The notes beneath the pieces are model-generated. The model did no database searches. It was given only the letters and a program-made list of their open reading frames with translations, and had not been told where the DNA came from. A program made the position numbers and the translations under genes. This document shows positions 1,928 to 22,249 of a DNA stretch of 29,037 nt, in pieces; the first letter of the stretch is position 1; every line of letters starts with the position of its first letter. The stretch is from a virus. The stretch spans positions 1 through 29,037 of the IMG/VR virus record IMGVR_UViG_3300047560_001933. One strand, given 5' to 3'.

Positions 1928-2682
1928 ACGTTGTTATTTTTGGTAATGGAAAGGTTGGTAAAGCTACTGACCTTACAATGAAGTTGAATGCTGACTTCCA
2001 CGATCCCTATAAGGGTCTGGTTGTTACTGATTTCTCAAAGTATGATATTGCAATCATTTGTGTATCATCTCTGAATGATGGTCCTTATGATCACGATGCA
2101 ATCTATCATTGCTTAGATACATTGAACAAAGCCGAGTTTAAAGGAACGATTGCTATTAGATGTACTGTCTCGCCATCGTTCCTCAAAGCATGGGACCTTC
2201 AATTCCCTAACCTGAAAATTATTCACTTTCCTGAGTTTATGAAACAGGGTGATGATGAATATCTCGACAAGCCCTGGATTCTGGTTCTTGGTGGTGACAA
2301 GAAGCTGACTGTTCCATTTGGTAAGTGGTTGGTGGATAATGGATATGGACACGAGGAGCAGTGGCACTTCTGCACGAAAGTAGAGAGTGCATTAATCAAA
2401 TTGCATCAGAATGCTGGCCTGGCATTGAAGGTTGTTTATGCCAATATCATGTATGAAGCATGTCAAGCACATGGAGCTGATTATGAAAAAGTCCGTCAAG
2501 GGGTGGCTGCTGATGTTCGTGTTGGTCCTGGCCATCTTCAAGTTCCAGGTGAACATGGTTTTGGGTTTGCTGGACACTGCCTTCCCAAAGACTTGAAGTG
2601 CCTTGATAGGGTAGCGGATAGTAGAGGGTTCTGGCCAGCGGTTATGAAAGTTAACGAACAATTGAAAGCGAAGAATGTCTAA
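1924..2682 (+). CDS. UDP-glucose/GDP-mannose dehydrogenase-like protein, short form
   Basis: Resembles nucleotide-sugar 6-dehydrogenases, which oxidise UDP-glucose-type substrates to uronic acids with NAD. A Rossmann start is present (MNVVIFGNGKVG), then the central helical domain with the typical ESALIKLHQNAGLALK stretch (active-site Lys and Asn region), and the catalytic cysteine motif FAGHCLPKD with C219. At 252 aa it is far shorter than the usual 390-450 aa because the C-terminal sugar-nucleotide-binding domain is absent; the protein ends about 30 residues after the Cys motif. It may be an active minimal form, part of a two-protein enzyme, or act on another substrate. It overlaps deformylase by 4 nt and QueE by 8 nt, so it belongs to the same operon. 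The family is secure; the substrate is not. Confidence 0.82.
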   Translation: MNVVIFGNGKVGKATDLTMKLNADFHDPYKGLVVTDFSKYDIAIICVSSLNDGPYDHDAIYHCLDTLNKAEFKGTIAIRCTVSPSFLKAWDLQFPNLKIIHFPEFMKQGDDEYLDKPWILVLGGDKKLTVPFGKWLVDNGYGHEEQWHFCTKVESALIKLHQNAGLALKVVYANIMYEACQAHGADYEKVRQGVAADVRVGPGHLQVPGEHGFGFAGHCLPKDLKCLDRVADSRGFWPAVMKVNEQLKAKNV

Positions 2683-3583
2683 ACAAATTGCATACAGTGA
2701 GATCTTCCACTCTATTCAGGGTGAAGGTCACTACACAGGTCGACCAACAGCTTGGTTGAGATTCTTTCTTTGTAACCTTCAATGTGATGGGTTTGGCCAG
2801 AAGGATCCTACCGATCCATCTACATACGTTCTCCCATATAAGACAATTAAGGTTGAAGATTATAAGAAGCTAGAAGATCTGCCTGTGTGGAAGTATGGAT
2901 GTGACTCTTCTTATTCGTGGTCTGCAAAGTTTAAACATTTGCAACATAAGCATACAGCAGAAGAGATTTGCGATCGCATTCGTCAGTCGATGTACCATCC
3001 TTCTAATCCAGAAGGCCTCTTCAATAAGAGAGACGGTACACAACAACATCTTTGCTTTACAGGCGGTGAGCCTTTGATGAAGCATGCACAGGTTGCTGCT
3101 ATCGATATTGTTGATCATTTTGTTGAAGAGGGTGACTACCCATTGTATCTGACATGGGAAACAAACGGTACACAAGAACTGACATCAGAGTTTGCAAACT
3201 ACTTTGCTGACTATGCTGGTGAGGTTTTCTTTTCTATCTCTCCAAAGCTACACACAACATCTGGTGAGAAGCCAGAAGATGCAATTAAGATTGATGTTGT
3301 AAAGTCTTACACAGAGATTTCCTCATGGGGACAACTGAAGTTTGTTGTCAATGGGACAGAAGAATCGTGGAACGAGCTAGAGGCAACTGTAGCAAAGTTC
3401 CGTGAAGCAGGCGTGACATATCCTGTCTGGATTATGGGTGTTGGTGCAACACTTGAAGCTCAGAAGGGAACCGAAGCTGGTTATATCGGCGAAGCGAAGA
3501 TTGCTACAGAAGCATTCAAGCGTGGTTACAACTATTCCTCACGTGTGCACGTACACATCTGGGGTAACACAATGGGAACTTAA
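2675..3583 (+). CDS. queE: 7-carboxy-7-deazaguanine synthase QueE, radical SAM
   Basis: Radical SAM enzyme that converts 6-carboxytetrahydropterin to 7-carboxy-7-deazaguanine (CDG). The start shows the QueE hallmark SEIFHSIQGEG (residues 8-18), which binds substrate, and TAWLRFFLCNLQC, the beginning of the iron-sulfur site. Cysteines C33 and C37 are followed by a long insert before YGCDSSYSW (C76), which lines up with the canonical WCDSxxxW end of the cluster loop; normally this spacing is only two residues. The SAM-binding GGEP motif follows (CFTGGEPLM), and later TWETNGT and SISPKL. At 302 aa it is longer than typical QueE (about 210-250 aa), partly because of the insert. It lies directly before queD and close to folE, forming a deazaguanine cassette. 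Confidence 0.9.
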   Translation: MSKQIAYSEIFHSIQGEGHYTGRPTAWLRFFLCNLQCDGFGQKDPTDPSTYVLPYKTIKVEDYKKLEDLPVWKYGCDSSYSWSAKFKHLQHKHTAEEICDRIRQSMYHPSNPEGLFNKRDGTQQHLCFTGGEPLMKHAQVAAIDIVDHFVEEGDYPLYLTWETNGTQELTSEFANYFADYAGEVFFSISPKLHTTSGEKPEDAIKIDVVKSYTEISSWGQLKFVVNGTEESWNELEATVAKFREAGVTYPVWIMGVGATLEAQKGTEAGYIGEAKIATEAFKRGYNYSSRVHVHIWGNTMGT

Positions 3584-4114
3584 ATGGAAGATCATATTCA
3601 TGCATGGCGTTCTGCACGTCAATACAAATACACAAGCACAAAAGAATATCACGATGCATTTCCATGTGCATATCGTCAATGGAGAGCAGATAGTCATTGC
3701 AATCTGATTCATGGTTATAGCTTCTCGATGAAGTTCTACTTTGGAACAGATGATCTTGATGTTCGAAACTGGGCTGCTGACTATGGTGGTTTGAAAGAAC
3801 TGAAGAATGTACTTGAGGATCAATTTGATCACACTCTTCTTGTTGCTGAGGATGATCCTGAACTGGAAATGTATTATGAACTCGAGCGTCGCAACCTAGC
3901 GAAGCTGACAGTTCTTCCTAAGCTTGGCTGTGAGGGTCTTGCTGATCAGTTGTACAAGTATGTTAACGGTGTTTACATTCCTGATTACTGGGGCCCATCA
4001 GAAGCGAGTCGTTTATGGTGCTACCGTGTCGAAGTTCGCGAGACACAAAGCAATATGGCTTTCCGTGAAGGTCATCGTGAGTGGAATGAAGATCTATTTG
4101 AAGATGTAAGATGA
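3584..4114 (+). CDS. queD: QueD-like 6-carboxytetrahydropterin synthase (divergent)
   Basis: T-fold protein of the 6-pyruvoyltetrahydropterin synthase/QueD family, which turns dihydroneopterin triphosphate into 6-carboxytetrahydropterin, the QueE substrate. The family pattern is recognisable: FPCAY (residues 26-30) at the F-x-AAH position, catalytic-type C39 in SHCNLIHGYSF, FDHTLL (D82, H83) matching the LDHxxLN motif, GCEGLADQLYKYV matching the T/S-x-E-N-x-A helix, and VRET (E153) at the substrate-anchoring Glu. Two canonical zinc histidines appear replaced: AAH reads CAY (Y30) and HGH reads HGY (Y45). This is either a divergent phage lineage with a rearranged metal site or a changed activity. 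The gene abuts queE with no gap and overlaps the next gene by 4 nt. Confidence 0.82.
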   Translation: MEDHIHAWRSARQYKYTSTKEYHDAFPCAYRQWRADSHCNLIHGYSFSMKFYFGTDDLDVRNWAADYGGLKELKNVLEDQFDHTLLVAEDDPELEMYYELERRNLAKLTVLPKLGCEGLADQLYKYVNGVYIPDYWGPSEASRLWCYRVEVRETQSNMAFREGHREWNEDLFEDVR

Positions 4115-4908
4115 AAAGGCCACAACGCATCTTGGTGATGGGTCTGCCTGGAGCAGGTAAGACCTATCTCGCGCAGTTCATTGTTGAGACCCTACAAAAA
4201 GAAAAGAAGAAAGTAGGGTGGCTCAATGCTGATGATGTACGGAAGAAATACGATGACTGGGATTTCAGTCACGAGGGTAGAATCCGTCAGAGCAAGCGGA
4301 TGCGCCAGTTGGCTGACGAGATGACTAAGTTCGACTACGTCATTTGTGATTTCGTTGCTCCTCTACAGGAGATGAGAAACAACTTTAAAGCTGATTGGAC
4401 TATCTGGGTTGACACCATCGATGAGGGTAGGTTCGATGATACAAACAAGTTGTTCGTTCCTCCACAAGTTTATGACTTTAGAGTGACGGAACAAAAGGCA
4501 GAGAAGTGGGGTGAGTTTATTGCAGCTCACATCTACGACAACAGACGTCGACCTGTGTTTGACACAAAGAAAGAAACTGTCCAGTTGCTGGGTCGTTGGC
4601 AGCCATGGCATCTTGGTCATAGAACTCTCTTTGAAAGAGCTTTAGCTAAAACAGGTCAAGTTTGTATTATGGTCAGAGATTGTCAAGGATGGAATGATTC
4701 CAATCCTTTTAACTTTGAACAAATTCAAAACAGGATTCGCCGTGATCTTGACCCTCTCTATCAAGGGTTGTATAATATTCAACTGGTACCTAATATTGTA
4801 AACATTACATATGGACGCGATGTTGGTTACAAGATTGAAAAGGAAGAGCTCGGTGCTGCCATCGAGAAGATCTCAGCAACAGATATTAGGAAAGAACTTG
4901 GCGTTTAA
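4111..4908 (+). CDS. Adenylylsulfate kinase-like / NMN adenylyltransferase-like fusion
   Basis: Two-domain protein. The N-terminal half is a P-loop kinase with GLPGAGKT (residues 11-18) and WLNADDVRKKYDDWDFS, which matches the LDGDxxR...DLGFS pattern of APS kinases. The C-terminal half (about 155-265) is a nucleotidyltransferase with GRWQPWHLGH (HxGH at 167-170) and the closing ISATDIR (254-260), as in NMN adenylyltransferases of the NadM/NadR type. A kinase plus NMNAT pairing recalls NadR but with the domain order reversed. Likely roles are phosphorylation of a small molecule and NAD synthesis from NMN, or cytidylyl/adenylyl transfer to another substrate. It starts in an ATGA overlap with queD. 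Fold assignments are good; the substrates are inferred. Confidence 0.8.
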   Translation: MKRPQRILVMGLPGAGKTYLAQFIVETLQKEKKKVGWLNADDVRKKYDDWDFSHEGRIRQSKRMRQLADEMTKFDYVICDFVAPLQEMRNNFKADWTIWVDTIDEGRFDDTNKLFVPPQVYDFRVTEQKAEKWGEFIAAHIYDNRRRPVFDTKKETVQLLGRWQPWHLGHRTLFERALAKTGQVCIMVRDCQGWNDSNPFNFEQIQNRIRRDLDPLYQGLYNIQLVPNIVNITYGRDVGYKIEKEELGAAIEKISATDIRKELGV

Positions 4909-5095
4909 ACAATTCAAGTGGGTTCCGGATGGAACCTATGACTACAATAACTTTCTTGTTCGTTATGTGATCAAGGATGGCAATGCAACCAAAGTTATTT
5001 CTAAAATATGGGTTGACCTTGGCGGTCCAGATGATGTATCATTAGAACTTAAACAACCTTGGGGATCATTTCCAGATTTCCCACCAAAACCTTAA
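4898..5095 (+). CDS. Small hypothetical protein (65 aa)
   Basis: Starts at a TTG codon inside the last codons of the upstream fusion gene (11-nt overlap), preceded at 4888-4894 by AGGAAAG, a good ribosome-binding site. An in-frame ATG exists at 4811 but would force a long overlap and encode only basic, low-quality sequence, so TTG is preferred. The product begins MAFKQFKWVPDGTYDYNN, contains a predicted beta-rich core (FLVRYVIKDG, SKIWVDLG) and ends in a proline-rich tail (WGSFPDFPPKP). No motif identifies a function. Its position between the NMNAT-like gene and folE puts it in the deazaguanine operon, but that alone says little about its job. Confidence 0.6.
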   Translation: MAFKQFKWVPDGTYDYNNFLVRYVIKDGNATKVISKIWVDLGGPDDVSLELKQPWGSFPDFPPKP

Positions 5096-5106
5096 TAGGA
5101 GTGTAA

Positions 5107-5781
5107 ATGGAAAAGACAGACGCAGCATTGGGTGAACAGGTACATGCTCACCTACTATCAGTAGGCCTGGAAACACCTATGGTGTATGACCGAGTTAAGG
5201 TCAAGAATGACAAGAAGATTAAGAACATTGCAAAGCACTTTACAGCTATTATGGAAGAGCTTGGTCTTGATCTGACTGATGATTCTTTGATCGATACTCC
5301 TAATCGTGTTGCTAAGATGTATACACGAGAGATCTTCTTCGGTCTTGACTATGACAACTTCCCTAAGTGTACTCGCATTGAGAACAAGATGGGTGAGAAT
5401 AACAGCTTTGTTCTGGAGCGTAATATCAATGTGCAGTCTAATTGTGAGCACCATTTTGTCGTTATTGACGGTAAAGCCACTGTTGCGTACATTCCGAAGA
5501 AAACAATCCTCGGACTCTCAAAGCTAAACCGTATTGTTCAGTTCTTCTCTAAGCGTCCTCAAGTACAGGAACGTCTGACTGAGCAGATCGCTGAGACGAT
5601 TAGTTTTATTACAGGTTCCCCTGATGTTGCTGTATACATCGAAGGCGTACACTATTGTGTCAAGTCTCGTGGTATCCAGGATACATCATCTTCAACGATG
5701 ACTCTCGCTACGCGTGGTGCGTTTGCTGAAGAGAAGTCGGAACTGCGTCGTGAATTCCTTAACTCTGCACGGATGAAATAA
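5107..5781 (+). CDS. folE: GTP cyclohydrolase I (FolE)
   Basis: Converts GTP to 7,8-dihydroneopterin triphosphate, the first step of folate and 7-deazaguanine synthesis. The conserved zinc site is intact: CEHH with C113 and H116, plus C184 in VHYCVKSRG; catalytic H115 is present. Other family marks are DTPNRVAKMY (63-72) and the KTILGLSKLNRIVQFFSKRPQVQERLT block. At 224 aa it is normal length for a bacterial-type enzyme. A clear AGGAG at 5098-5102 precedes the ATG. In this operon, with queD and queE and without folate genes, its product most likely feeds CDG synthesis. Confidence 0.95.
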   Translation: MEKTDAALGEQVHAHLLSVGLETPMVYDRVKVKNDKKIKNIAKHFTAIMEELGLDLTDDSLIDTPNRVAKMYTREIFFGLDYDNFPKCTRIENKMGENNSFVLERNINVQSNCEHHFVVIDGKATVAYIPKKTILGLSKLNRIVQFFSKRPQVQERLTEQIAETISFITGSPDVAVYIEGVHYCVKSRGIQDTSSSTMTLATRGAFAEEKSELRREFLNSARMK

Positions 5782-5782
5782 A

Positions 5783-6244
5783 ATGCGTACACAACGTCAA
5801 ACTCAAACCTGGACTCCCACTCTTGTTGAAGCTTTTGGACCTTCTGGTGAAAAAGGTCGTAAAGGTGAGCTCTTTGTAAAGAGAGCTATTGAGAGTTGGG
5901 GTTGGCAAGTTAGAGACAACGAAGGTAATATTCTTGAGCAATTGTCTGGTCGTGATCTTTGGATCAAGAAACCTGAGTGGAGTAACTTCTACAGCATTGA
6001 TGTAAAGAACAATCTCAACGAGTATGGGGCATTCACTGTTGTTCCTAAAGAGTGGATGAACCCTGCAAAGAAGAATGATCGTTTCTGGCACGTCAATACT
6101 GAGACAGGTTGGATGGCGTGGTACTCGCGTGAAGATATGCAACGATTCATTGGTACGACCAATCGTGTCCGTTCTTTTACAGTAGGTATCAAAGACCAAC
6201 TGCCTTTCAAGATCACACGCGCTCGTTTCAATGTACCGTTTTGA
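5783..6244 (+). CDS. Putative PD-(D/E)XK nuclease-like protein
   Basis: A 153-aa protein with a pattern fitting the restriction-endonuclease/Holliday-resolvase fold: a helix with E29 (GRKGELFVKRAIESWGW), then D58 in SGRDLWI, then D73-V-K75 in YSIDVKNN. That is the E...D...DxK order of PD-(D/E)XK enzymes, with short spacing as in small resolvases and very-short-patch-like nucleases. The second half (WFxx-type aromatic residues, WHVNTETGWMAWY) may bind nucleic acid. No exact family name is recognised. It begins one base after folE and overlaps the methyltransferase gene by 14 nt. The fold call is a motif-level inference; a structural protein with a chance match is possible. Confidence 0.5.
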   Translation: MRTQRQTQTWTPTLVEAFGPSGEKGRKGELFVKRAIESWGWQVRDNEGNILEQLSGRDLWIKKPEWSNFYSIDVKNNLNEYGAFTVVPKEWMNPAKKNDRFWHVNTETGWMAWYSREDMQRFIGTTNRVRSFTVGIKDQLPFKITRARFNVPF

Positions 6245-6836
6245 TTATCCGGATTGGTCTAGTGTTCATCACACGCACTGGAAGACAATACTAGATAAAC
6301 ACCTTGACCTTGAATCTCCTTTGAGGATGATTGAGGTCGGGTGTTTTGAAGGCAGATCAACTATGTGGTTTGCCGGTTACCTTTGTCATAATCCTCTCTC
6401 ACGGTTGGTGTGTATTGATACATGGCAAGGCGGTGAAGAGATTGAACGCTTGAAGCTACCATTTGATATGCTTAAAGTGTTTGATAACTTCTGTAAGAAT
6501 GTAATCAACCACGATCAATCAGTAAAGATTTTTACACATAAGGGATCATCAGAGAGTCATTTGTCTTCTTTATTGTACAAGGGGTATCAAAGCTATGACT
6601 TCATTTACCTTGATGCATCTCATACGCGTCGTGATACATTGGTAGATCTTACACTATCACTGCTTCTTGTAAAGAAGGGTGGTGTCATTATTATCGATGA
6701 CTACAACAACAATATGGCAACAAAAGATCCTGCACTACGACCCCGTACCGCTGTAGACTTTATTGTTGAAACATTCGATAGTGAAGTAGAGTTTTATAAG
6801 ACTCCAGAGCAACAAGCTGTTATTATTAGAAAGTGA
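6231..6836 (+). CDS. SAM-dependent class I methyltransferase
   Basis: Rossmann-type methyltransferase of 201 aa. Motif I reads IEVGCFEGRS (residues 34-43), the ribose-binding acidic residue is D63 in LVCIDTWQGG, and the later strands DFIYLDASHTR and GGVIIIDDYN are typical of the Methyltransf_24/FkbM-like group, which often acts on sugars or small molecules. No DNA-methylase DPPY/NPPY motif is visible, so a DNA base methylase of the classical N6/N4 type is unlikely. It overlaps the upstream nuclease-like gene by 14 nt and ends in a GTGA overlap with the next gene. Its substrate is unknown; a sugar, a nucleotide or a modified base are all possible. Confidence 0.78.
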   Translation: MYRFDYPDWSSVHHTHWKTILDKHLDLESPLRMIEVGCFEGRSTMWFAGYLCHNPLSRLVCIDTWQGGEEIERLKLPFDMLKVFDNFCKNVINHDQSVKIFTHKGSSESHLSSLLYKGYQSYDFIYLDASHTRRDTLVDLTLSLLLVKKGGVIIIDDYNNNMATKDPALRPRTAVDFIVETFDSEVEFYKTPEQQAVIIRK

Positions 6837-7219
6837 ATATGGACAATAAGAGTTTTATTTGGGTGACATTTCAGAAAGAAGGCATCCACCGATACCCTGC
6901 TGCAGCTACAGACCCTAAACTGAAGACAGGTGATTGGTTGGATGTCAGCTTTTTAGGTGTTCCACATCGCCACATCTTTCATTTCCGTGTTGAGATGGAA
7001 GTGTTCCATGATGATCGTGATGTTGAATTCATTCAAGCAAAGCGCACAATGGAGCGTTGGTTGTCTGATGGTACAATGACGCTTGACTACAAATCTTGTG
7101 AAATGATGGCACGCAGCATGTATGACCATTGTGTTAGCAAGTGGCCTGACCGCGACTATGTTATCGAAGTCTCCGAGGACGGAGAGAACGGTTGCCGCAT
7201 TTATTTCCCGAAAGGTTGA
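6833..7219 (+). CDS. Conserved hypothetical protein, possible T-fold
   Basis: A 128-aa product starting at GTG (GTGA overlap with the methyltransferase); an ATG six bases downstream (6839) is an alternative start. The sequence is rich in aromatic and acidic residues: PHRHIFHFRVEMEVFHDD near the middle and SCEMMARSMYDHCVSKWP toward the end, finishing EVSEDGENGCRIYFP. The HxHxFxxxVEV strand followed by a helix with SCExxA and a closing E-containing strand is reminiscent of the QueD/PTPS T-fold order, but the similarity is weak. I believe close relatives occur in T4-like phages of aquatic bacteria without a known function. Its place between queDE/folE and the TGT-like gene is consistent with a pterin or deazaguanine role, which is inference. 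Confidence 0.6.
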   Translation: MNMDNKSFIWVTFQKEGIHRYPAAATDPKLKTGDWLDVSFLGVPHRHIFHFRVEMEVFHDDRDVEFIQAKRTMERWLSDGTMTLDYKSCEMMARSMYDHCVSKWPDRDYVIEVSEDGENGCRIYFPKG

Positions 7220-7221
7220 TC

Positions 7222-8079
7222 TTGATTAACTTCTGCCACATCTCTCCCACCGCCTATCTCAATAAGTATACTAAGAGTAACGGAGCGCACTTGCTTCTTG
7301 CCCACTTGGTTGAAGAGGATCCTCAGTACCGTGATTACTATGCGAACCTCAACGACGACAAGTACAAGATCATGGATAACAGTGCTTTCGAAATGTTTAA
7401 GCTCGGACGTCCCATGTATGAGTCGTCAAAGCTAATTGAGATGGGCAAAGCATGCAATGCAAATTGTATTGTGCTTTCCGATTACCCCAAGCAACCTTCA
7501 CGAGTGACGGTGGAAGCCGCCAAGCGGTTGATCCCCGAGTTTAAGACGGAGGGATTTGATACCTTCTTCGTGCCACAAAGCGAGCTTGGTGACATGGTCG
7601 ATCTTGTTAATGCCATTGAGTGGGCTCTTAATAATGATGACATTGACTTGATCGGCATGTCTATTTTGGCAGCACCTATTGCATGTGGTGTTGACGAATC
7701 AACGTTTGAAGGTGGTAAGCGTAGCGATGCATACAAGATGCAACGTTATCTTTCACGTCTGACGGTGTTCCGTGAACTTGAGCGTCGCAAGTTGCTGACA
7801 GATAGAGCAAAGAAACGTTTCCACTGTCTTGGTATGGTCGATGGACCAAAAGAGATTAACCTATTGCGAGAATACAGTGACTTCATTTACTCCTGGGACT
7901 CTAGTGCTGCTGTTTGGGCTGGTATCAATGGTATTGAGTTTGATGCTTCGCCTACTGGTCTACAGAATGGTAAATTCGAAAAAGAAGTAGACTTTTCCTA
8001 CAATGAGGAGCATAATCCTCAGCTTGTTTATGAAAACATTCACTACATTGATTGTATGGCGACAGGTGTATGGCGTTGA
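7222..8079 (+). CDS. tRNA-guanine transglycosylase-like protein, candidate DpdA-type DNA deazaguanine transferase
   Basis: TIM-barrel protein with features of the queuine tRNA-ribosyltransferase superfamily, whose phage members (DpdA) exchange guanine in DNA for a 7-deazaguanine. From the TTG at 7222 (285 aa): MDNSAFEMF (D52, like the substrate-binding Asp of TGT), LSDYPKQPSR (D87), FVPQSELGDM, IDLIGMSI, CLGMVDGPKEINLL, and YSWDSSAAVWAGINGIEFD with D226 near the TGT nucleophile position, followed by GLQNGKF (compare RNGxxF in TGT). The TGT zinc-binding cysteine cluster is not seen. TTG at 7222 follows GAAAGG by a normal distance; ATG at 7192 is the alternative, overlapping the previous gene by 28 nt. 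Neighbouring folE, queD and queE support a base-exchange role. Superfamily is moderately sure; the DNA target is inferred. Confidence 0.6.
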   Translation: MINFCHISPTAYLNKYTKSNGAHLLLAHLVEEDPQYRDYYANLNDDKYKIMDNSAFEMFKLGRPMYESSKLIEMGKACNANCIVLSDYPKQPSRVTVEAAKRLIPEFKTEGFDTFFVPQSELGDMVDLVNAIEWALNNDDIDLIGMSILAAPIACGVDESTFEGGKRSDAYKMQRYLSRLTVFRELERRKLLTDRAKKRFHCLGMVDGPKEINLLREYSDFIYSWDSSAAVWAGINGIEFDASPTGLQNGKFEKEVDFSYNEEHNPQLVYENIHYIDCMATGVWR

Positions 8080-9255: not shown

Positions 9256-10110
9256 ATGACATTTGAAATTAAAGTCCCCGTCTCCGATCTGCAAAAGAAG
9301 AAGCTGTTTGTAGCTACTCCAATGTATGGTGGTGCTTGTGCAGGCATGTATGCACGAAGCATTGCTGACCTTGCAGCTATTTGTGCAAAGTATGACATTC
9401 CTTTGCAATTGTATTATTTGTTTAACGAGTCGTTGATCACACGTGCTCGTAACTACTGTGTAGATGAGTTCTTGCGCTCTGATGCAACACACTTGATGTT
9501 TATTGACAGTGACATCGGTTTCAACCCACAAGACGTTATCGCTCTGCTTGCTTTGCAGTCTGATGAAAGCGACTATGATGTTATTGGTGGTCCTTATCCT
9601 AAGAAGTGCATCTCTTGGGAAAAGATTAAGATTGCTGTTGACAAAGGTGTCGCAGATGACAATCCTAACGTTCTCGAGAAGTTCGTTGGTGACTATGTGT
9701 TCAACCCTAAGGGCGGTCAGAAAGAGATCCCTATCGGTCAGCCTGTTGAAGTGATGGAGATCGGCACTGGCTTCATGATGATTCGTCGTGCAACGTTTGA
9801 CAAGTATAAGGAAGCATATCCTCACCTGTCTTACAAGCCAGATCATATCCGCACAGCAGCATTCGATGGTTCACGTGAAATCCATGCATACTTCGACTGT
9901 ATCATTGATCCTGTAAGCAAGCGTTATCTGTCAGAAGACTATATGTTCTGCTACAACGTAGAGAAGATGGGTTCCAAAGTTTGGCTGTGTCCTTGGATGA
10001 GCATGAACCACGTTGGTAGTTATGTGTTCGGTGGTAGCCTTGCAGACCTTGCATCTATTGGTGCACCTGCTACGGCTGACGCTGGTCAATTGGGGAAAAA
10101 CAAGAAATGA
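9256..10110 (+). CDS. GT-A type glycosyltransferase-like protein
   Basis: A 284-aa protein with the nucleotide-sugar-binding layout of GT-A fold transferases: first strand KLFVATPMYGG, then NESLITRARNYCVDEFL, and the metal-binding DXD motif HLMFIDSDIGF (D84-S-D86). Later come VIGGPYPKK, IGTGFMMIRRATFDKY (a common feature of family 2-like phage transferases), and SEDYMFC with a YNVEKMG helix near the end. It should transfer a sugar from a nucleotide donor. Acceptors could be phage DNA bases, as for T4 glucosyltransferases, or host or virion surface glycans. Spacing of two bases from the dUTPase-like gene and a 4-nt overlap with the clamp gene put it in the replication operon. Confidence 0.75.
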   Translation: MTFEIKVPVSDLQKKKLFVATPMYGGACAGMYARSIADLAAICAKYDIPLQLYYLFNESLITRARNYCVDEFLRSDATHLMFIDSDIGFNPQDVIALLALQSDESDYDVIGGPYPKKCISWEKIKIAVDKGVADDNPNVLEKFVGDYVFNPKGGQKEIPIGQPVEVMEIGTGFMMIRRATFDKYKEAYPHLSYKPDHIRTAAFDGSREIHAYFDCIIDPVSKRYLSEDYMFCYNVEKMGSKVWLCPWMSMNHVGSYVFGGSLADLASIGAPATADAGQLGKNKK

Positions 10111-13240: not shown

Positions 13241-13610
13241 GGTAAAGTTAAAGATAGACGAAGATTTTCTAAAGGTCCGTGAGACACTTACACGGATCGG
13301 TGTCGCCTCTAAAAAAGAACAAGTATTGTACCAATCGTGTCATATCCTGCATAAGCAGGGTTTGTATTACATTGTACACTTCAAGGAGCTGTTTGCTCTT
13401 GATGGTAAGCCTTCTAATATATCCGAAGAAGACCTAGGAAGACGTAATACAATCGCTAACCTAATTGCTGAGTGGGGATTAGTGACATTGGTCGAACCAG
13501 GCAAATCCAAGGATCCTATCGCTCCTATGTCGCAGATAAAGATCATCCCTTTCAAAGAAAAGAATGATTGGGAGCTTGTGACCAAATATAATATTGGTCG
13601 TAAGGTTTAA
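13215..13610 (+). CDS. regA: Translational repressor RegA
   Basis: RNA-binding protein that represses translation of early phage mRNAs by covering start regions. The 131-aa product is clearly RegA: DFLKVRETLTRIGVASKKEQ, VLYQSCHILHKQGLYYIVHF and the C-terminal WELVTKYNIG are near T4 RegA (122 aa). ATG 13215 is chosen over GTG codons at 13203-13209 because it follows GGTGGTGAG and gives a RegA-like start. The TAA stop overlaps the stop of the opposite-strand gene, leaving no terminator space. In T4, gp43 follows regA directly; here a minus-strand module intervenes. Confidence 0.94.
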   Translation: MIKLEALVEVKLKIDEDFLKVRETLTRIGVASKKEQVLYQSCHILHKQGLYYIVHFKELFALDGKPSNISEEDLGRRNTIANLIAEWGLVTLVEPGKSKDPIAPMSQIKIIPFKEKNDWELVTKYNIGRKV

Positions 13611-14173
13611 AGATACTTGCGGCTTCTTGCAGCCCACAGTCCTTCAGATATACCAAACTGAACAATTCCGTAAAAGATAAGACCGATAATTACAACAGCA
13701 AGAGCACACCACCCAAGCTCTATTAACAATTCTTTACGTTCTTTTGCTTTCTTATCATTGATCATTTGGAGACGAAGCTCTTCTGCTTCCTCATCTCTGA
13801 TCTTCTTGCGCATCTCTTCGCGTACGGTACACATATCATGCCATATGTCACCATTGCCGGACCACAATAACATCTCATAAAGTTTATACTCTTCACGTTC
13901 AAGAGTCTTGCGTTTGATCGCAATGTCTAAAGCCTCAGCAGTTATCTCTGCATCGGTTTTCTTTTGTTTCTTTTGTTTGTTGAAAGTAAGATCGTGTACT
14001 TCACGTTCTTTAATGCGCTCGGCTTTTTCAATTACACTCTTGTGCTTGAAGTATTCAATAATGTTTGATGATATGTCACCAACATCTTGACCGAGCTTGA
14101 TCAGCTCTTTGATACCAGCAACCGTAGCTTTAGCACCGGCAAATGCTAACCCTATTGTTGCTGGATCGATCAT
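13607..14173 (-). CDS. Membrane-anchored coiled-coil hypothetical protein (188 aa)
   Basis: Last gene of the minus-strand module. It begins MIDPATIGLAFAGAKATVAG, a glycine/alanine-rich head, followed by a long, highly charged helical region (residues 45-145, KAERIKEREVHD, KQKKQKKTDAE, EEMRKKIRDEEAEELRLQ), then one hydrophobic helix (LGWCALAVVIIGLIFYGIVQ) and a basic tail ARSRKYL. This looks like an inner-membrane protein with a large soluble helical part. Proteins of this kind accompany DUF4337 proteins in other aquatic T4-like phages, from memory. A role as a structural or lysis-linked protein is possible but not shown. Confidence 0.7.
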   Translation of the reverse strand: MIDPATIGLAFAGAKATVAGIKELIKLGQDVGDISSNIIEYFKHKSVIEKAERIKEREVHDLTFNKQKKQKKTDAEITAEALDIAIKRKTLEREEYKLYEMLLWSGNGDIWHDMCTVREEMRKKIRDEEAEELRLQMINDKKAKERKELLIELGWCALAVVIIGLIFYGIVQFGISEGLWAARSRKYL

Positions 14174-14179
14174 TTTACA

Positions 14180-14728
14180 TTATAGGACAATTGGTAGCCA
14201 CAACCAAACTGCTTGCGACAAAAACACGGTCGCAACACCACCAACAGCCAGACTTGCCCAATACAGACGCATATTGACAGCAAGAATAGATGCTGTTAAC
14301 AGAACAACAGCAATCTGGAATAGCGAACCAGCATACGTGTACCAGGGACTACGCAGCTTTGCTACAGTGCGGTCTTCCTCGAGCTTACGTGCTTTTGCCA
14401 TCAACTCTTTCTTACCCTCACCCGTCTTGGGATCAGATTCGTAGCGATCAATCTTTGCCTTCAGCGCTTCCTGTTTAACTTTGTCTTTATTATGGACAGC
14501 GTCATCATATGCCATTTCAGCAAGCGTTTGCTTGATACTCTTAGCCTGGTAGAATGCCCACGTGTTGTTTGCATCTATAGTGTTATTAAGTATCTTACTA
14601 CTATTGCTACCGCCGAAATAGGTATTAAGGGCCAGAAGAGCAGCAAAAACCACAATAACCCACCCTGCTTTATCTTTAATTTGTGCTTCTCTTTCGCTTC
14701 GACTAAGAGGCTTCTTTTCTTCACTCAT
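14180..14728 (-). CDS. DUF4337-like membrane protein
   Basis: A 182-aa membrane protein with an N-terminal transmembrane helix (AGWVIVVFAALLALNTYFGG), the DUF4337-type segment NNTWAFYQAKSIKQTLAEMAY, a charged helical stretch with KAKIDRYESDPKTGEGKKEL, and two more hydrophobic helices near the end (SLFQIAVVLLTASILA and WASLAVGGVATVFLSQAVWL). DUF4337 proteins occur in bacteria and many T4-like phages and have no known function. It starts in an ATGA overlap with the 42-aa gene and is followed 6 nt later by the 188-aa gene. Confidence 0.75.
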   Translation of the reverse strand: MSEEKKPLSRSEREAQIKDKAGWVIVVFAALLALNTYFGGSNSSKILNNTIDANNTWAFYQAKSIKQTLAEMAYDDAVHNKDKVKQEALKAKIDRYESDPKTGEGKKELMAKARKLEEDRTVAKLRSPWYTYAGSLFQIAVVLLTASILAVNMRLYWASLAVGGVATVFLSQAVWLWLPIVL

Positions 14729-14853
14729 TGTTTCTTCTCCTTCACTTCAACTTTAACTTCCACAGCTGTGTTGTCGACCGCTTTTTGAATTTTGGCGGCC
14801 GACCACCATCCAAATGAGGTAAAGAACCCCAGTACAAAAGCTGTAGTATACAT
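14725..14853 (-). CDS. Small membrane protein (42 aa)
   Basis: Short ORF read from ATG 14853, which immediately follows the TAA of the upstream 194-aa gene. The product starts MYTTAFVLGFFTSFGWWSAA, a short hydrophobic span, and continues KIQKAVDNTAVEVKVEVKEKKQ, an alternating charged tail. Its stop overlaps the next gene by 4 nt (ATGA), which supports translation. Residues KIQKAVDN repeat the KIQKAIDN found at the end of the neighbouring 194-aa protein, hinting at a shared interaction motif or common origin. Function unknown. Confidence 0.7.
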   Translation of the reverse strand: MYTTAFVLGFFTSFGWWSAAKIQKAVDNTAVEVKVEVKEKKQ

Positions 14854-15438
14854 TTACTTAGCCAGAGGGTTGTCGATCGCTTTTTGGATCTTGTTGTCGA
14901 CTTCCTTCTTCAGGGTCTCGACTTCACGGCCAATTTCGCGACGAGCCTCTGCCATTTCCTTACGGACAGCATTGACTTCGTTTCGTGCTTTATCAAGATC
15001 CTCACGGACATCCTTACGAGCTTGACGCATTTCTTGCTCTGTCTCACGCTGAGCTTGCTTTACACTACGTTCCACTTGCTCAGTCACTGTCTCATTACGA
15101 CGAATGTCTGTTTTTAGATCATTCTTAATATCACGTGTGTAATCAGCAGTCTTGGAGCTATTCTGTTCAATAACAGCCAGGCGCTTATCGAATTCAGAAA
15201 GATCGGGAGCAATATACTCCGCAATCTTTTTCTTCATGCCAATGTAGTCCTTGTAGACTTCAAAAGCACCATACAAACCACCGAGGATAGATGACACAAG
15301 CGTAGCTGCCACCATTAGCTTTGCTGGTGTAAATTCATATCCACCAATGCTAATAACGGTATCCTTGCTTGCATACTTCTTAACCGCTGCTTCTGCTTCG
15401 TCAATTTTTGCGTTGACGTCTTTAATTTCTTCTGACAT
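14854..15438 (-). CDS. Membrane protein with long coiled coil (194 aa)
   Basis: N-terminal acidic helix (MSEEIKDVNAKIDEAEAAVK), a hydrophobic span (LMVAATLVSSILGGLYGAFEV), then a long charged helical region from about residue 70 to the end, rich in Glu, Arg and Lys (QRETEQEMRQARKDVRED), ending KKEVDNKIQKAIDNPLAK. The heptad-like spacing suggests a coiled coil projecting from the membrane, a layout compatible with spanin-type or tether proteins, though no lipoprotein signal is visible. The start follows AAGGGAAGAT, which overlaps the stop of the upstream 777-aa gene. Function unknown. Confidence 0.72.
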   Translation of the reverse strand: MSEEIKDVNAKIDEAEAAVKKYASKDTVISIGGYEFTPAKLMVAATLVSSILGGLYGAFEVYKDYIGMKKKIAEYIAPDLSEFDKRLAVIEQNSSKTADYTRDIKNDLKTDIRRNETVTEQVERSVKQAQRETEQEMRQARKDVREDLDKARNEVNAVRKEMAEARREIGREVETLKKEVDNKIQKAIDNPLAK

Positions 15439-15439
15439 T

Positions 15440-17773
15440 TTATCTTCCCTTGTATTGTTGATTTACCATCTCCTGATGTACTCTATCAGAAGAGAGCTGT
15501 CTCAAAGCTCTGACATTATCGACGGTGTTCTGTCGAGGATAGATGTCACGTGGTGCATAAAATGAACTGTCCTTTAAAACTAATGTCAGATATGAATTAT
15601 AACCGGTTGGTAGCATAGCAATTTTTGCAATGTCAACGCCGACCGCGGCCTCATTGACAGCAACTTCTTTCTTTACAGTAGACATTTGCTGCTCCATTGA
15701 GACACCAGATATGATCGGTTGACCTTCAATGATTTCTCTTAATGGATTTGTTCTATCAATAAGAAAACTCGTACTAGTTGAAGGTGCTTCTACTTCTACT
15801 TCTCTTCTACTATTTGATAGTTCTTGAAATCCTCGTGACTGCTGCACTGTTTCGGTAAACACAGGTGCAGCAATGGTAGGTGCAAAAGAAGCTACTTGCA
15901 TACTTGGTACAATTGAATAGTTAGCTTGTATCTCAAACGACTGATTGGTCATCTGAGATACAGGCGCCACACTTTGTACTGTTGGAGCAAGTTGCATCTG
16001 CTGTAGCTGTTGCATTGTTGTAATTGCTGTAGATGTAACTTGCTGTTGTACTTGAGGACCACCTTGCAACTGTACAGCACCCATTCCGGCAAAGCTTTGC
16101 AAACCTAATCCCCCACCAGCCGAGGCTGATCTTGAATCGGATGTTGCAGATGTTGTACCAGAAGAAGATCCAGTCGTGGTTGTTGTAGACATACTTGCTT
16201 CACTTGCCTTAGTTGCAACCGAAACAGCTTCCTGTTGTGCCTGAGATCCTGCAGCTTGCGCTTGTTCAACCGCTGTAGCTACCGCACTCATTGCTATTGC
16301 TTTCTCCTTCTCAGCATTCTTTGATATTAGATTCATAGCAAAGGAAAGATTGACGGGTGAAGCAACAGCTCTATCAGACGTTGCAGCACTACCAGCACTC
16401 GAACTTACACTTGTTGTAGATGTAGATGATGAGGAACTGCTAGACGCTGTCTGTGTAGAAGCTGGCGGAGGCGGAGGCGCTGTAGATGGAGAAATTGCTT
16501 GTACTGTTGATCCAGATGGAGAAGTAGTGAATGTTATTGCATCTGTTGTGTTAGTACCTGCCGTAACACTTGCTGGTTCTGTATATCCCGTTGTAGCGTA
16601 ATCTGTTTTGTTTGTACCATTGAGCTTATCGATTGCTTCCTGGAATCCAGTACACGTTGGGCTATACATAACGTTCTTCATACAAGGATCTGGTGTAACG
16701 ATCATCTTGCTGTACATATTGTAGATTGAACCATTTCCTTCTACTTGAGCACTGAAATGAAAGTTACCCATCAGATTGGTGTTAGTAGAATTAGGAAATA
16801 AGTATTGATAGTTCATCTCTTGTGGACCGGTGTTAGCACCCTGGAACACATGATTGTTATTGAACACTAATCCACCGTTTGCGTTAGTGGCACCAGCGCT
16901 CACACGTGCAACGCTGTCTGTCCAACCTGTACAAAATATACCGAGGAACGAAGATGAGCAGTATGGATCTTTCAAATCATAAACGAAGCCATATTTGAAT
17001 CCATGCAGTGCTAAGCCTGAGCCTGAGCTCGACAAAACTGTTGCAATTGGATATGTGTTATCAACGTAGTTACTGCCAGTCGCAACAGCATTTGGATACG
17101 GAACCAGGTTGATACTTGTTACAAGATCATTGAACCCAGCACATTGCGGACTGTACGCTGGATTGTTAGCGCATGGATCAACACGGTAGTTTAGCGAAAG
17201 TTGAGGATCACGAACACGAGGTCCGTAGTATCCGGCCCAGAAGCGACTGTCTTTACCCGTAAAGGATACGGAAATCGTTGACAGTTCACCAGCGAGGTAG
17301 TTACGTGTAAAGTTTTGTGTACCGGAAAACAACTGAAAGTATTCTGCATCACCTGTAGTGTTTTGTGCATTATAGTTATATGAATACGTTTCTAACGTGT
17401 TACCAGCAGTACCCTTCAACGTGACATTACCAGTAAGCGATCCAAAATAATTAGCGGTATTGTTGTTAATCTTCCAGCTATAGTTATAGCCAGTAACTTG
17501 AATACCCGTATCCTGCAAAGCACTGTTAATTGCTACAGATTGTGTTGTAGTCTGCTGTGTATACCCAAACAAAATTGTGTTTGTAGTTGGGTTAAAGCCC
17601 GCTGTGTATCCACCACTATACCCTCCTGCAGATCCTGGAACGGTTCCGCTCCAAGATCCCGAAGCACCACTTAACAGATTGCTTGTGGTCGCATCCTGAG
17701 CATTAGAACTTAAACAGATTGTGAACAGCAATACCGAACAGAGCGCCAAGCCCAATTTTCTTATAAGTGTCAT
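15440..17773 (-). CDS. Exported 777-aa protein with two CX9C beta-type domains
   Basis: A clear Sec signal peptide opens the protein (MTLIRKLGLALCSVLLFTIC, likely cleaved after SNA at residue 25). Gly/Thr/Asn/Tyr-rich beta-type sequence follows, with two related blocks that each end in DPC-x9-C-x-GF (C201/C211 and C364/C374), suggesting duplicated disulfide-bonded domains. Residues 400-560 are a Ser/Thr/Ala/Pro linker including PPPPP, then a Gln-rich stretch (560-650) and a C-terminal domain with QNTVDNVRALRQLSSDRVHQ. It lacks a recognised enzyme motif. It is probably placed in the periplasm or outer membrane of the host, or is a virion protein made through the Sec route. ATG 17773 follows AAGGAAAAG. 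The first 71 nt overlap the upstream gene. Confidence 0.78.
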   Translation of the reverse strand: MTLIRKLGLALCSVLLFTICLSSNAQDATTSNLLSGASGSWSGTVPGSAGGYSGGYTAGFNPTTNTILFGYTQQTTTQSVAINSALQDTGIQVTGYNYSWKINNNTANYFGSLTGNVTLKGTAGNTLETYSYNYNAQNTTGDAEYFQLFSGTQNFTRNYLAGELSTISVSFTGKDSRFWAGYYGPRVRDPQLSLNYRVDPCANNPAYSPQCAGFNDLVTSINLVPYPNAVATGSNYVDNTYPIATVLSSSGSGLALHGFKYGFVYDLKDPYCSSSFLGIFCTGWTDSVARVSAGATNANGGLVFNNNHVFQGANTGPQEMNYQYLFPNSTNTNLMGNFHFSAQVEGNGSIYNMYSKMIVTPDPCMKNVMYSPTCTGFQEAIDKLNGTNKTDYATTGYTEPASVTAGTNTTDAITFTTSPSGSTVQAISPSTAPPPPPASTQTASSSSSSSTSTTSVSSSAGSAATSDRAVASPVNLSFAMNLISKNAEKEKAIAMSAVATAVEQAQAAGSQAQQEAVSVATKASEASMSTTTTTGSSSGTTSATSDSRSASAGGGLGLQSFAGMGAVQLQGGPQVQQQVTSTAITTMQQLQQMQLAPTVQSVAPVSQMTNQSFEIQANYSIVPSMQVASFAPTIAAPVFTETVQQSRGFQELSNSRREVEVEAPSTSTSFLIDRTNPLREIIEGQPIISGVSMEQQMSTVKKEVAVNEAAVGVDIAKIAMLPTGYNSYLTLVLKDSSFYAPRDIYPRQNTVDNVRALRQLSSDRVHQEMVNQQYKGR

Positions 17774-19040
17774 CTGTCTTTTCCTTTACAGGTTCTGGTA
17801 CTTTGTCTGGATTTGCTTCCCATGCTGCTTTAGCCTGTTCGCCAATCTTGCCTTCAAACGGGCAAGGTGTTCCTGCTGCTAGCATAGCATCAAAGACACG
17901 GCGATCCTGACACATGGTTGCAACTGCAGCAACCTTCATACCCATATCGTATAAAGTTTTGGATAGTTTCAGGCGTTCACAATTCTCATCACGTACTACA
18001 CCTCCGGATGAAACACCAAAAATCTGTGTTTGAACGGATCCGGATGTACCTGTAGTACACAGATCAGCATTACCACCACTCATCATTGCAGGTGCAATTG
18101 CGGTTGGAGGTGGCTGAATAACACGTTGTGTGATTGTTGTTTCGTTAATATTACGGTTGGTCATCTCACCAGATTGAATGTTCTGATTCACGTTATTTGA
18201 CGTGCTTGTGTTGTTGTTCTGGTTTACGTTGTTAGACGTAGATGTGCTATTGTTATTGTTGTTATTTGTCATACTTCCACTCTGAATATTGTTGTTTGTA
18301 TTCACGCTTGTGGATGTATTGTTGTTATTGTTGTTGTTTGTCATACTTCCACTTTGAATGTTATTGTTTGTATTAACACTCGTAGAAGTACTGTTATTCA
18401 CGTTATTGTTATTGTTCGTCATGCTTCCGCTTTGAATATTGTTATTTGTATTCACGTTTGTAGAAGAAGCAGTGCTAGAGTTGTTATTGTTATACGTCAT
18501 CGTGCCGCTGTTGATGTTCGTATTAACGTTATTGCTAGCGTTGTTGTTATTGTATGTCATCGTACCGGTATTCACGTTTGTGTTGGTCGATGTGCTAACG
18601 TTGTTATTGTTATTTGTAATCGTACCGGTATTGTTGTTGTTATTGTTATAGGTCATTGTACCAGAGTTGACGTTATTGTTGTTATACGTCATTGATCCGG
18701 TATTAACGTTATTGTTATTGTTTGTGACAGTACCGCTTTGAACGTTATTGTTCGTGTTTATACTTGTAGCAGTCGATGTAGAAGTACTCGTATTAACGTT
18801 GTTGTTGGTGCTTGTACTGTTGACAGTCGAAGTGCTTGTTGCCGTACTGTTGGAGTTTGTTGTATTATTGGTGTTTACTGTACTAACACTATTTGAAGTA
18901 CTGTTAGTATCCACTAACGATTTTGAATCGTAAGTGAGCGTTCCACTCGTTTGATTGATCAAAGCTGGTGTTGTTTGTCCCTGCGCCGTCACGTAACTCA
19001 TTACAAAAAGTAGCGAAAGTGCTAACTTTTTGATTTGCAT
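17703..19040 (-). CDS. Exported Asn/Ser/Thr-rich repeat protein (445 aa)
   Basis: Signal peptide MQIKKLALSLLFVMSYVTAQ, then about 255 residues (45-300) made almost entirely of Asn, Ser, Thr and Val. Within them a short unit, G-[ST]-[MVIL]-T-[NY]-N-N-N, recurs about ten times (starting near residues 103, 115, 127, 139, 159, 179, 205, 231, 255 and 291). The C-terminal part is ordinary protein: DLCTTGTSG, VVRDENCERLKLSKTLYDMG, MCQDRRVFDAMLAAGTPCPF with four or more cysteines, and a final hydrophobic stretch IGLGALFGIAVHNLFKF. The repeat may fold as a beta-solenoid or fibre; the Cys-rich domain is likely a conserved anchoring or assembly domain. First gene of the minus-strand module; AAGGAAC lies before the ATG. 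Function unknown. Confidence 0.82.
   Translation of the reverse strand: MQIKKLALSLLFVMSYVTAQGQTTPALINQTSGTLTYDSKSLVDTNSTSNSVSTVNTNNTTNSNSTATSTSTVNSTSTNNNVNTSTSTSTATSINTNNNVQSGTVTNNNNNVNTGSMTYNNNNVNSGTMTYNNNNNNTGTITNNNNNVSTSTNTNVNTGTMTYNNNNASNNVNTNINSGTMTYNNNNSSTASSTNVNTNNNIQSGSMTNNNNNVNNSTSTSVNTNNNIQSGSMTNNNNNNNTSTSVNTNNNIQSGSMTNNNNNNSTSTSNNVNQNNNTSTSNNVNQNIQSGEMTNRNINETTITQRVIQPPPTAIAPAMMSGGNADLCTTGTSGSVQTQIFGVSSGGVVRDENCERLKLSKTLYDMGMKVAAVATMCQDRRVFDAMLAAGTPCPFEGKIGEQAKAAWEANPDKVPEPVKEKTDDTYKKIGLGALFGIAVHNLFKF
18141..18908 (-). repeat. Asn-rich coding repeat array
   Basis: Region encoding residues 45-300 of the exported repeat protein. On the + strand it appears as long runs of GTT/ATT/GTA-type triplets such as TTGTTGTTATT. 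On the coding strand AAC/AAT, AGT/ACT and GTA/GTT dominate, mixed rather than one pure codon. Unit spacing changes along the array: 12 residues early, 20 in the middle, 24-26 late, which suggests successive duplications of different unit sizes. Three late units share VNTNNNIQSGSMTNNNNN almost exactly. The mixed codons argue that the amino acids, not the DNA, are under selection. Confidence 0.85.
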
Positions 19041-21062: not shown

Positions 21063-21512
21063 ATGTCAGTAACACTAAAAAATTTAGAGAGCGCATTGGC
21101 TGGTGAGTCAATGGCTCACATTAAATACCGCTACTTTGCTAAACTAGCTCGTGCTGAAGGATTCGAAGAAGTTGCAAAACACTTTGAACATACGGCAGAT
21201 CAAGAGATCCTACATGCATGGGGTCACCTGGAGTTGCTGATCGGTAAGCCTTCTACAAAGGAATGCCTGGAGAAAGCAATTGCTGGTGAGACATATGAAT
21301 ACACAGAGATGTATCCACAGTTTCATGCTATTGCTGTCAAAGAAGGTGACCTAAGCGCTGCTGGTGTTGCTCTTGAGCAAATGGCTGAGTCAAAAGAACA
21401 TGCTGAACAGTTTGTTAAAGTACTAGCGCTTGCAGAAAAGCGTTTCGCTGCTTTGCAGAAAGTTGAACAACGTCATGCAGAAGCATACAAAAAAGTATTG
21501 GAGGCACTATAA
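21063..21512 (+). CDS. Rubrerythrin-like di-iron protein, catalytic domain only
   Basis: Ferritin-like four-helix protein of 149 aa matching the di-iron domain of rubrerythrin, which reduces hydrogen peroxide. Metal-ligand motifs are visible: GESMAH (E15), ADQEILHAWGH (E48 with H51), GETYEYTEMYP (E76 and E79) and MAESKEHAEQF (E109 to H113). The rubredoxin domain normally fused at the C-terminus is absent, but a separate rubredoxin gene follows, its ATG sharing a base with this stop codon. The pair therefore acts as a split rubrerythrin and should protect against peroxide during infection. Good ribosome-binding site (AAAGGAG). Confidence 0.9.
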   Translation: MSVTLKNLESALAGESMAHIKYRYFAKLARAEGFEEVAKHFEHTADQEILHAWGHLELLIGKPSTKECLEKAIAGETYEYTEMYPQFHAIAVKEGDLSAAGVALEQMAESKEHAEQFVKVLALAEKRFAALQKVEQRHAEAYKKVLEAL

Positions 21513-21757: not shown

Positions 21758-22249
21758 ATGCAATTTGGTAACATTAACTTTGGTCCTCAATTCAAAGACG
21801 TCGATAAATTCTTCGTTGGTTTTGATGACACATTCAATCGCATCGCAAAGATGCACGATGATCTGACAAAGAACATCCCCAACTACCCACCTTACAATAT
21901 CAAAAAGACTGGCGATAACACTTACGTTATCGAATTGGCTGTTGCTGGCTTTGCCAAGCAAGATATTGAGATTGAACTAGCCGAAGGCAAGATGGTCATT
22001 AAGGGCAATGTGCAAGATGATACAGACAACGATAACTTCCTGTTCAAGGGTATCGCTGCTCGTAATTTCACACGTACATTTGCGCTTGAAGATCAAGTAG
22101 AAGTCAAAGACGCAGAGATGCTCAATGGCATGTTGAAAGTGTTCCTGGAACGAATCATTCCTGAACACAAGAAGCCAAAGAAAATCGAAGTCAAAGAAAA
22201 GACTTCTAAAAAGGCTGACAAGCAATATCTTACAGAAGACGATCTGTAA
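21758..22249 (+). CDS. Small heat shock protein Hsp20/alpha-crystallin
   Basis: ATP-independent chaperone of 163 aa. The alpha-crystallin domain covers about residues 45-135: NTYVIELAVAGFAKQDIEIEL, GKMVIKGNV, RNFTRTFALEDQVEVKDAEM and NGMLKVFLER, with a polar linker before the C-terminal tail rich in Lys. The N-terminal arm has FKDVDKFFVGFDDTFNR. Hsp20 genes are common in aquatic T4-like phages and may protect replication or capsid proteins. AGGAG (21748-21752) precedes the ATG with good spacing. The leader holds a terminator and a late promoter, so regulation by read-through is possible. Confidence 0.92.
   Translation: MQFGNINFGPQFKDVDKFFVGFDDTFNRIAKMHDDLTKNIPNYPPYNIKKTGDNTYVIELAVAGFAKQDIEIELAEGKMVIKGNVQDDTDNDNFLFKGIAARNFTRTFALEDQVEVKDAEMLNGMLKVFLERIIPEHKKPKKIEVKEKTSKKADKQYLTEDDL

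Follow-up and report, generated by a model that had tools for sequence, protein, structure and literature searches.

The IMG/VR virus record IMGVR_UViG_3300047560_001933, analysed here over its whole length of 29,037 bases (the window), is a genome fragment with a T4-like look: it carries genes for a sliding clamp, a clamp loader, a RegA-type translational repressor, a family B polymerase, a RecA-type recombinase and a DnaB-type helicase, as well as an SMC/Rad50-like ATPase that scores under the Pfam cut-off. It also carries a cassette of 7-deazaguanine genes, in which QueE-, QueD- and FolE-type genes are followed by genes for a small protein of predicted tunnelling fold (T-fold) and for a protein predicted to share the fold of tRNA-guanine transglycosylases (TGT) and of the DNA-modifying enzyme DpdA (Table 1). 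FolE converts GTP to dihydroneopterin triphosphate, from which QueD yields 6-carboxytetrahydropterin (CPH4) and QueE 7-carboxy-7-deazaguanine (CDG). A first-pass annotation of the sequence had overlooked the T-fold gene and proposed that, with QueC missing, CDG itself is placed in the phage DNA. On balance we lean towards a QueC-free 7-deazaguanine DNA-modification cassette in which the T-fold protein acts on CDG and the TGT-like enzyme inserts the product.

The T-fold product is 128 amino acids long and belongs to phrog_17812, for which no function is named; its homologs favour the ATG at 6839 as the start. Its predicted structure (predicted local distance difference test (pLDDT) score of 93.6) runs beta-beta-alpha-alpha-beta-beta. 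The top Foldseek matches are E. coli QueD entries (probability 1.00, template modelling (TM) score up to 0.69), and VIA gives Z scores of 12.0 to the 6-pyruvoyltetrahydropterin synthase (PTPS) 2dtt, 11.1 to QueD and 10.6 to dihydroneopterin aldolase; as far as the model can be trusted, QueD and PTPS are the nearest solved structures. The T-fold family also aligns with the QueD family in hhalign (probability 88%, E value 2.8e-6), and a search of PDB sequences with its profile found nothing. Across 46 T-fold sequences H19, H45, H47, E90 and E115 are invariant, and the family alignment places H45, H47, E90 and E115 on the second and third zinc histidines and the anchor glutamates of QueD. Neither of the marks sought for a QueD enzyme, a Cys before the HxH motif and an Asp-His pair, is present in the product: in the alignment the position of the catalytic Cys of QueD is an invariant Leu throughout the family, and the Asp-His pair is absent.

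Only 2 nucleotides (nt) separate the stop codon of the T-fold gene from the TTG start of the TGT-like gene; several homologs have the same TTG or an ATG at that place, and others start upstream. The product has no Pfam match and no credible match among PDB sequences by phmmer, even with a 42-row profile. The Pfam TGT family PF01702 matches none of the 42 members of its family and nothing in 10 genomes, and it misses the DpdA2 phages nt-1 and KVP40 too. The TGT/DpdA-like call made in the first pass is nevertheless borne out by structure prediction. An AlphaFold model built from 38 sequences (pLDDT 92.4, predicted TM (pTM) score 0.91) draws only TGT entries among its 50 listed Foldseek matches (E 6.4e-8, probability 1.00), and VIA gives Z scores of 17.0 to TGT (239 residues aligned, root-mean-square deviation (rmsd) 3.2) and 16.7 to 7ui4, the DpdA that inserts 7-cyano-7-deazaguanine (preQ0) into DNA (239 aligned, rmsd 3.5). 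The model thus falls inside the superfamily, with a TIM-barrel fold of the TGT/DpdA type. Three aspartates that are invariant in 42 sequences lie at the ends of model strands 3, 4 and 8, namely D52 (in DNSAFE, after beta3), D87 (after beta4) and D226 (in WD226SS, at beta8), with further invariant motifs PQ at beta5, GxS at beta6 and H-x-LG at beta7; this order along the strands would match that of TGT, in which the active-site aspartates lie at beta3, beta4 and beta8. In hhalign, D52 and D87 fall on the corresponding motifs of E. coli TGT, though with low probabilities (0.4 and 5.9%). The same program found no homology to nt-1 DpdA2 (probability 0.15%, or 5% for family against family), and a comparison of the family with the pooled DpdA proteins of phi38:2, Dp-1 and ItsyBitsy1 (Rosebush group) reached 40% (E 2.9e-4, 203 columns).

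Table 1 Genes of the proposed 7-deazaguanine cassette, with the evidence for each assignment.
Feature	Position	Strand	Evidence
QueE-like radical SAM enzyme (CDG synthase)	2675..3583	+	phrog_2076 E 2e-51
QueD-like 6-carboxytetrahydropterin synthase	3584..4114	+	PF01242 (PTPS) E 3e-14; phrog_2389 E 1.5e-35
FolE, GTP cyclohydrolase I	5107..5781	+	PF01227 E 1e-57; CEHH + HYC motifs
T-fold QueD/PTPS-like protein, probable CDG-processing enzyme	6833..7219	+	predicted model, Foldseek, VIA, phrog_17812
TGT/DpdA-fold guanine transglycosylase-like protein	7222..8079	+	predicted model, Foldseek, VIA; TTG start

A tblastn search with the TGT-like protein matched 225 IMG/VR stretches by pattern, and we studied the best 80 of the 225 as related loci. 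The T-fold gene lies upstream of the TGT-like gene in 78 of these 80, within 100 nt in 64; one of the two remaining loci begins inside the TGT-like gene (L018) and the other has only 494 nt upstream (L075). More than 9 kb precede the TGT-like gene in 32 loci, and by tblastn all 32 of them have the T-fold gene, 31 have FolE, 30 have QueE and 28 have QueD, so that the grouping of these genes is not due to chance. A wider set of 22 whole records consists of the window, 16 contigs chosen from the 80 loci and 5 named phages, KVP40 among them. FolE was detected in 21 of these and PTPS in 20, and all 22 have a QueE-profile match, although in G002, G013 and G016 it is weak or partial; the PTPS misses are G013 and D479, and D479 has a 326-residue frame with matches under the cut-off. 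In cultured phages, tblastn found relatives of the TGT-like protein in four: Aeromonas Ahp1, Vibrio D479, Rhizobium RHph_I1_18 and Vibrio Bakedbeans.

The three biosynthetic enzymes themselves are as the first-pass annotation had them, including the full zinc site of FolE, which we presume to be formed by its CEHH and HYC motifs (Table 1). QueE has the cysteines C33-x3-C37-x38-C76 (counted by hand), and the insert before the third is common to KVP40, D479 and Ahp1. In the QueD of the window, AYRQ and HGY stand in place of the AHRL and HGH of E. coli QueD, two zinc histidines being replaced while the Cys and the Asp-His pair are kept; the QueD of phi38:2 (CFRQ, HGY) resembles it. We considered whether this QueD, which is short of two zinc histidines, and the T-fold protein, which retains zinc-type histidines but is short of the catalytic residues, form one split enzyme. 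We rejected the idea because the same kind of QueD occurs in phi38:2, a QueC phage that is absent from the T-fold lists.

The window has no QueC detectable by PF06508 and no SGGxDS in six frames. As the record is a fragment, we discarded this absence as uninformative by itself and searched whole genomes; the first-pass claim that QueC is missing carries no weight for 29 kb alone, but the whole genomes of related phages bear it out. The QueC search matched 12 of 14 control genomes. Among the 21 whole records other than the window, PF06508 has three matches, which are the true QueC of KVP40, a divergent protein in G005 and a partial match in D479. The T-fold family occurs in 27 records of the phage collection (26 with the window's protein as query and 25 with that of phiST, both lists complete at E 0.01), and full-length QueC was found in none of the 12 representatives tested, which include only 1 of 11 PA5oct-type and 1 of 5 Cellulophaga records; D479 has its partial match and X1 a 16-bit match under the cut-off. 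We also took 55 T-fold loci, some of them short (13 genome-collection contigs, 7 named phages and 35 viral contigs, one of the latter being ACP17 again). Two QueC queries retrieved nothing from them by tblastn, whereas FolE was found in 37, QueE in 36 and QueD in 22. A QueC homolog is present in 319 phage records (the best 60 of 319 being listed), and none of the seven QueC phages examined (nt-1, KVP40, pf16, phi38:2, Dp-1, ItsyBitsy1 and D480) is on the T-fold lists. Judged by these searches, the T-fold gene and QueC appear to exclude each other across the phages compared. QueF did not score over the cut-off in G005-G007, Ahp1, D479, RHph_I1_18, Bakedbeans or phiST, two weak matches falling inside FolE.

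The T-fold gene keeps company with more than one kind of partner: among the 55 loci it stands with the window's TGT-like family in 14, with the DpdA2-like family phrog_10773 in 14 and with a PA5oct gp168-type protein in 16. The DpdA2-like proteins of ACP17, X1 and BUCT-ZZ01 are 33-37% identical to nt-1 DpdA2 over 260-315 residues, and DpdA2 phages split into nt-1, KVP40 and pf16, which have QueC and are off the T-fold lists, and ACP17, X1 and BUCT-ZZ01, in which the T-fold gene is present and QueC is missing. A search of nine genomes with the window's TGT-like family found no DpdA2 (Ahp1, D479, RHph_I1_18, Bakedbeans, phiST, MA9V-3 and G005-G007). The Vibrio phage D479 has the same T-fold/TGT-like pair as the window and no DpdA2 match, whereas in D480, a phage of that source series, a gene annotated as QueC lies near a DpdA2 match.

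Because the T-fold protein replaces QueC in cassettes that end at CDG, and keeps the zinc-type and anchor residues while the catalytic ones of QueD are lost, we regard it as a candidate CDG-processing enzyme, with CDG as its probable substrate. In the scheme that we favour it would do so in QueC's stead, most likely by decarboxylation to 7-deazaguanine, and the TGT-fold protein, going by its fold, motifs and cassette, would swap guanine in DNA for 7-deazaguanine. Decarboxylation leads among the conceivable reactions because Cui et al. 2023 reportedly described the deoxynucleosides of CDG and 7-deazaguanine (dCDG and dDG) in phage and virus DNA, predicted DpdL to be a CDG decarboxylase and named DpdA subfamilies 3 and 4 as new. 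DpdA3, DpdA4 and '7-deazaguanine decarboxylase' in this sense were not found in the literature searched, and the matches listed for DpdL are, by title, unrelated abbreviations. The modified base would block the N7 and major-groove contacts of host restriction enzymes. Such a role in restriction evasion gains support by analogy with 2'-deoxyarchaeosine (dG+), which, according to a 2019 paper that also ascribes base exchange to DpdA, protects against EcoRI (PMC6884629). There is also a bolder version, which we offer tentatively, as doubtful: the T-fold protein would be a new kind of enzyme in QueC's place, with some other base as the product that it makes from CDG, and the TGT-like protein would represent a separate subfamily of DNA transglycosylases specific for that base.

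Several observations weigh against the scheme. What the data show are gene identities, two predicted folds, the near-constant co-occurrence of the T-fold and TGT-like genes and the lack of a full QueC in related complete phages, and from these we infer the reaction, the base and the DNA target. Compared with the window's own QueD alone, the T-fold protein reaches an hhalign probability of just 1.9%; other T-folds score close in VIA, dihydroneopterin aldolase lying within 1.5 Z; and the Pfam PTPS family matches 1 of 46 T-fold members, at E 0.2. H19 was picked as the third zinc ligand by eye only, and neither alignment pairs it with H16 of QueD. The T-fold protein could be a non-catalytic partner, and Roos carries a T-fold homolog but no PTPS match. 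Foldseek puts the TM score of the TGT-like model to TGT at just about 0.5, and when known phage DpdA proteins are compared with it one sequence at a time, the hhalign probability does not exceed 1.3%. The pair is also not always close, the two genes being 1.7 kb apart in RHph_I1_18 and 6.7 kb apart in Bakedbeans. As to QueC, a divergent QueC-like protein encoded in G005 (234,864 bases) exceeds the cut-off of PF06508, and a partial PF06508 match is common to D479 and KVP40, in the latter separate from QueC. The G005 protein is encoded near 182000 of G005:C1, far from the cassette, and has a C-x7-CxxCxxC motif; as a query in the 22 records it matched only G005 itself and, weakly, KVP40. We rejected it as the missing QueC since it has SSGLES for SGGxDS and, by eye, no VPxRN or YPDC, QueC motifs taken from PMC13329287. 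The partial match in D479 and KVP40 has a cysteine motif and adjoins a frame resembling nicotinamide phosphoribosyltransferase (Nampt).

Should CDG itself be inserted, as the first-pass annotation proposed, the T-fold protein would be a carrier that binds CDG, a regulator, or a subunit with a structural role in the transglycosylase. Much is compatible with that: FolE, QueD and QueE end at CDG, full QueC is absent from the related complete genomes, the T-fold protein is without the catalytic Cys and Asp-His pair of QueD, its gene is tightly paired with the TGT-like gene, and the 2019 paper suggested CDG for the Mycobacterium phage Bipper, in which QueC alone is missing (PMC6884629). However, zinc-type histidines and purine/pterin anchors persist in diverse phages, more in keeping with an enzyme than with a scaffold, and the occurrence of the protein beside no fewer than two dissimilar families of transglycosylases, that of the window and DpdA2, speaks against a dedicated subunit. 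Thus the cassette without QueC and with a TGT/DpdA-fold enzyme stands as first described, whereas CDG as the final base is weakened, because a conserved T-fold protein sits at the QueC step and excludes QueC across the phages compared, so that its product is the likelier one to be inserted; we rank CDG insertion second and consider it unlikely.

It is improbable that the phage merely boosts CDG, from which QueC of the host makes preQ0 for the TGT-like enzyme to insert. QueC is common in bacteria and archaea, as the control genomes illustrate, and, as the 2019 paper reports, plasmid DNA gained the deoxynucleoside of preQ0 (dPreQ0) when the DpdA of phage 9g alone was present in E. coli (PMC6884629); but among the phages compared, which span many host groups, those with DpdA and no T-fold gene have QueC and those with the T-fold gene do not, and the T-fold gene would be left unexplained. 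A role for the T-fold protein as a second QueD, which would increase CPH4, or as another pterin enzyme that supplies QueE would suit a QueD/PTPS fold in a cassette that starts from pterins, yet the lost Cys and Asp-His pair, the presence of a QueD in 28 of the 32 loci with long upstream sequence and the unexplained exclusion of QueC make it very improbable. We give least credence of all to a TGT-like enzyme that acts on tRNA, with the cassette serving translation. The fold is common to tRNA-guanine transglycosylases, but DNA-acting DpdA ties with TGT in VIA (16.7 against 17.0), and the cassette lies among replication genes in a window with no tRNA gene, although none of these points is decisive.

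Modification of phage DNA with 7-deazaguanines is a known kind of system, and the cassette falls within it unless the T-fold and TGT-like families lie outside the description by Cui et al. The Cellulophaga phage phiST comes close to the window: it has a homolog of the TGT-like protein (phrog_20335, hhalign probability 97.5%), one of the T-fold protein (31% identity, E 1e-16), FolE, QueE and QueD, and no QueC match. The second-best viral model is that of a phiST protein of 259 residues, by length and name CGPG_00065, and the cassette comprises CGPG_00065, CGPG_00067, FolE, QueE and QueD. Unlike the window, phiST, a 79-kb phage, has an extra gene between the pair (CGPG_00066, 159 residues, phrog_19196; L115:1382-1861). 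MA9V-3 has an extra gene of similar size (L125:7312-7782) between its T-fold and TGT-like genes. The T4-like phages nt-1 and KVP40 share FolE, QueD, QueE and a TGT-related inserting enzyme with the window, but the inserter is DpdA2, QueC is present (in KVP40 QueF too) and neither is on the T-fold lists; nt-1 DNA contains dPreQ0, as PMC6884629 states. Acidovorax phage ACP17 has FolE, QueD, QueE, the same T-fold family and no QueC match, as in the window, but a DpdA2-like inserter (37% identity to nt-1 DpdA2, 281 residues) and a GT-B-like glycosyltransferase between inserter and T-fold gene. Its relative Ps15 is described in PMC9025141 as having QueC beside TGT.

Neither of the further modifiers suggested in the first pass emerges as a core part of the system. 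The methyltransferase is present in 6 of the 32 loci with long upstream sequence, and the glycosyltransferase (9256-10110) is a frequent neighbour that is not specific. It occurs in 26 of the 32 loci, nearly as often as QueD, which leaves room for a lineage-specific role, but it was not found in the stretches around the TGT-like gene of Ahp1, D479 and Bakedbeans, and it matches 66 phage records, mostly cyanophages (43), with RHph_I1_18 as the sole overlap with T-fold/TGT-like phages among the matches listed (20 of 66). A GT-B-like glycosyltransferase matches in 33 of the 55 T-fold loci (PA5oct, ACP17 and BUCT-ZZ01 among them) and in 0 of the 14 with the window's TGT-like family. Where the T-fold protein stands with DpdA2 or with an unrelated large protein, often together with this GT-B enzyme, the enzyme may modify the base, which there may be glycosylated.

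Other genes adjoin or lie within the cassette region. Between QueD and FolE, 4111-4908 encodes a kinase joined to a stretch like nicotinamide-nucleotide adenylyltransferase (in 10 of the 32 loci). At 5783-6244 lies the gene of a 153-residue protein without a family match, present in 7 of the 32, whose stretch GRDLWI...SIDVKNN resembles, by eye, a PD-(D/E)XK nuclease. Elsewhere in the window, the minus strand of 13607-19040 encodes two long, low-complexity proteins rich in Asn, Thr and Ser, with starts that by eye resemble signal peptides, and a DUF4337 protein; rubrerythrin and Hsp20 genes adjoin each other (21063-21512 and 21758-22249); and a 2-oxoglutarate-Fe(II) oxygenase (PF13759, 26743-27381) lies between the RecA-like and DnaB-like genes.

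With these results an argument from the absence of a gene, QueC, becomes a positive and testable one, in which a specific small protein stands in QueC's place. A phage family without a named function in the libraries used is assigned a TGT-type fold on the basis of its predicted model, and its partner a QueD-type fold. If the proposed scheme is true, the T-fold gene would mark the phages whose DNA contains 7-deazaguanine or CDG instead of bases of the preQ0 type, and this prediction would extend to PA5oct-like Pseudomonas phages.

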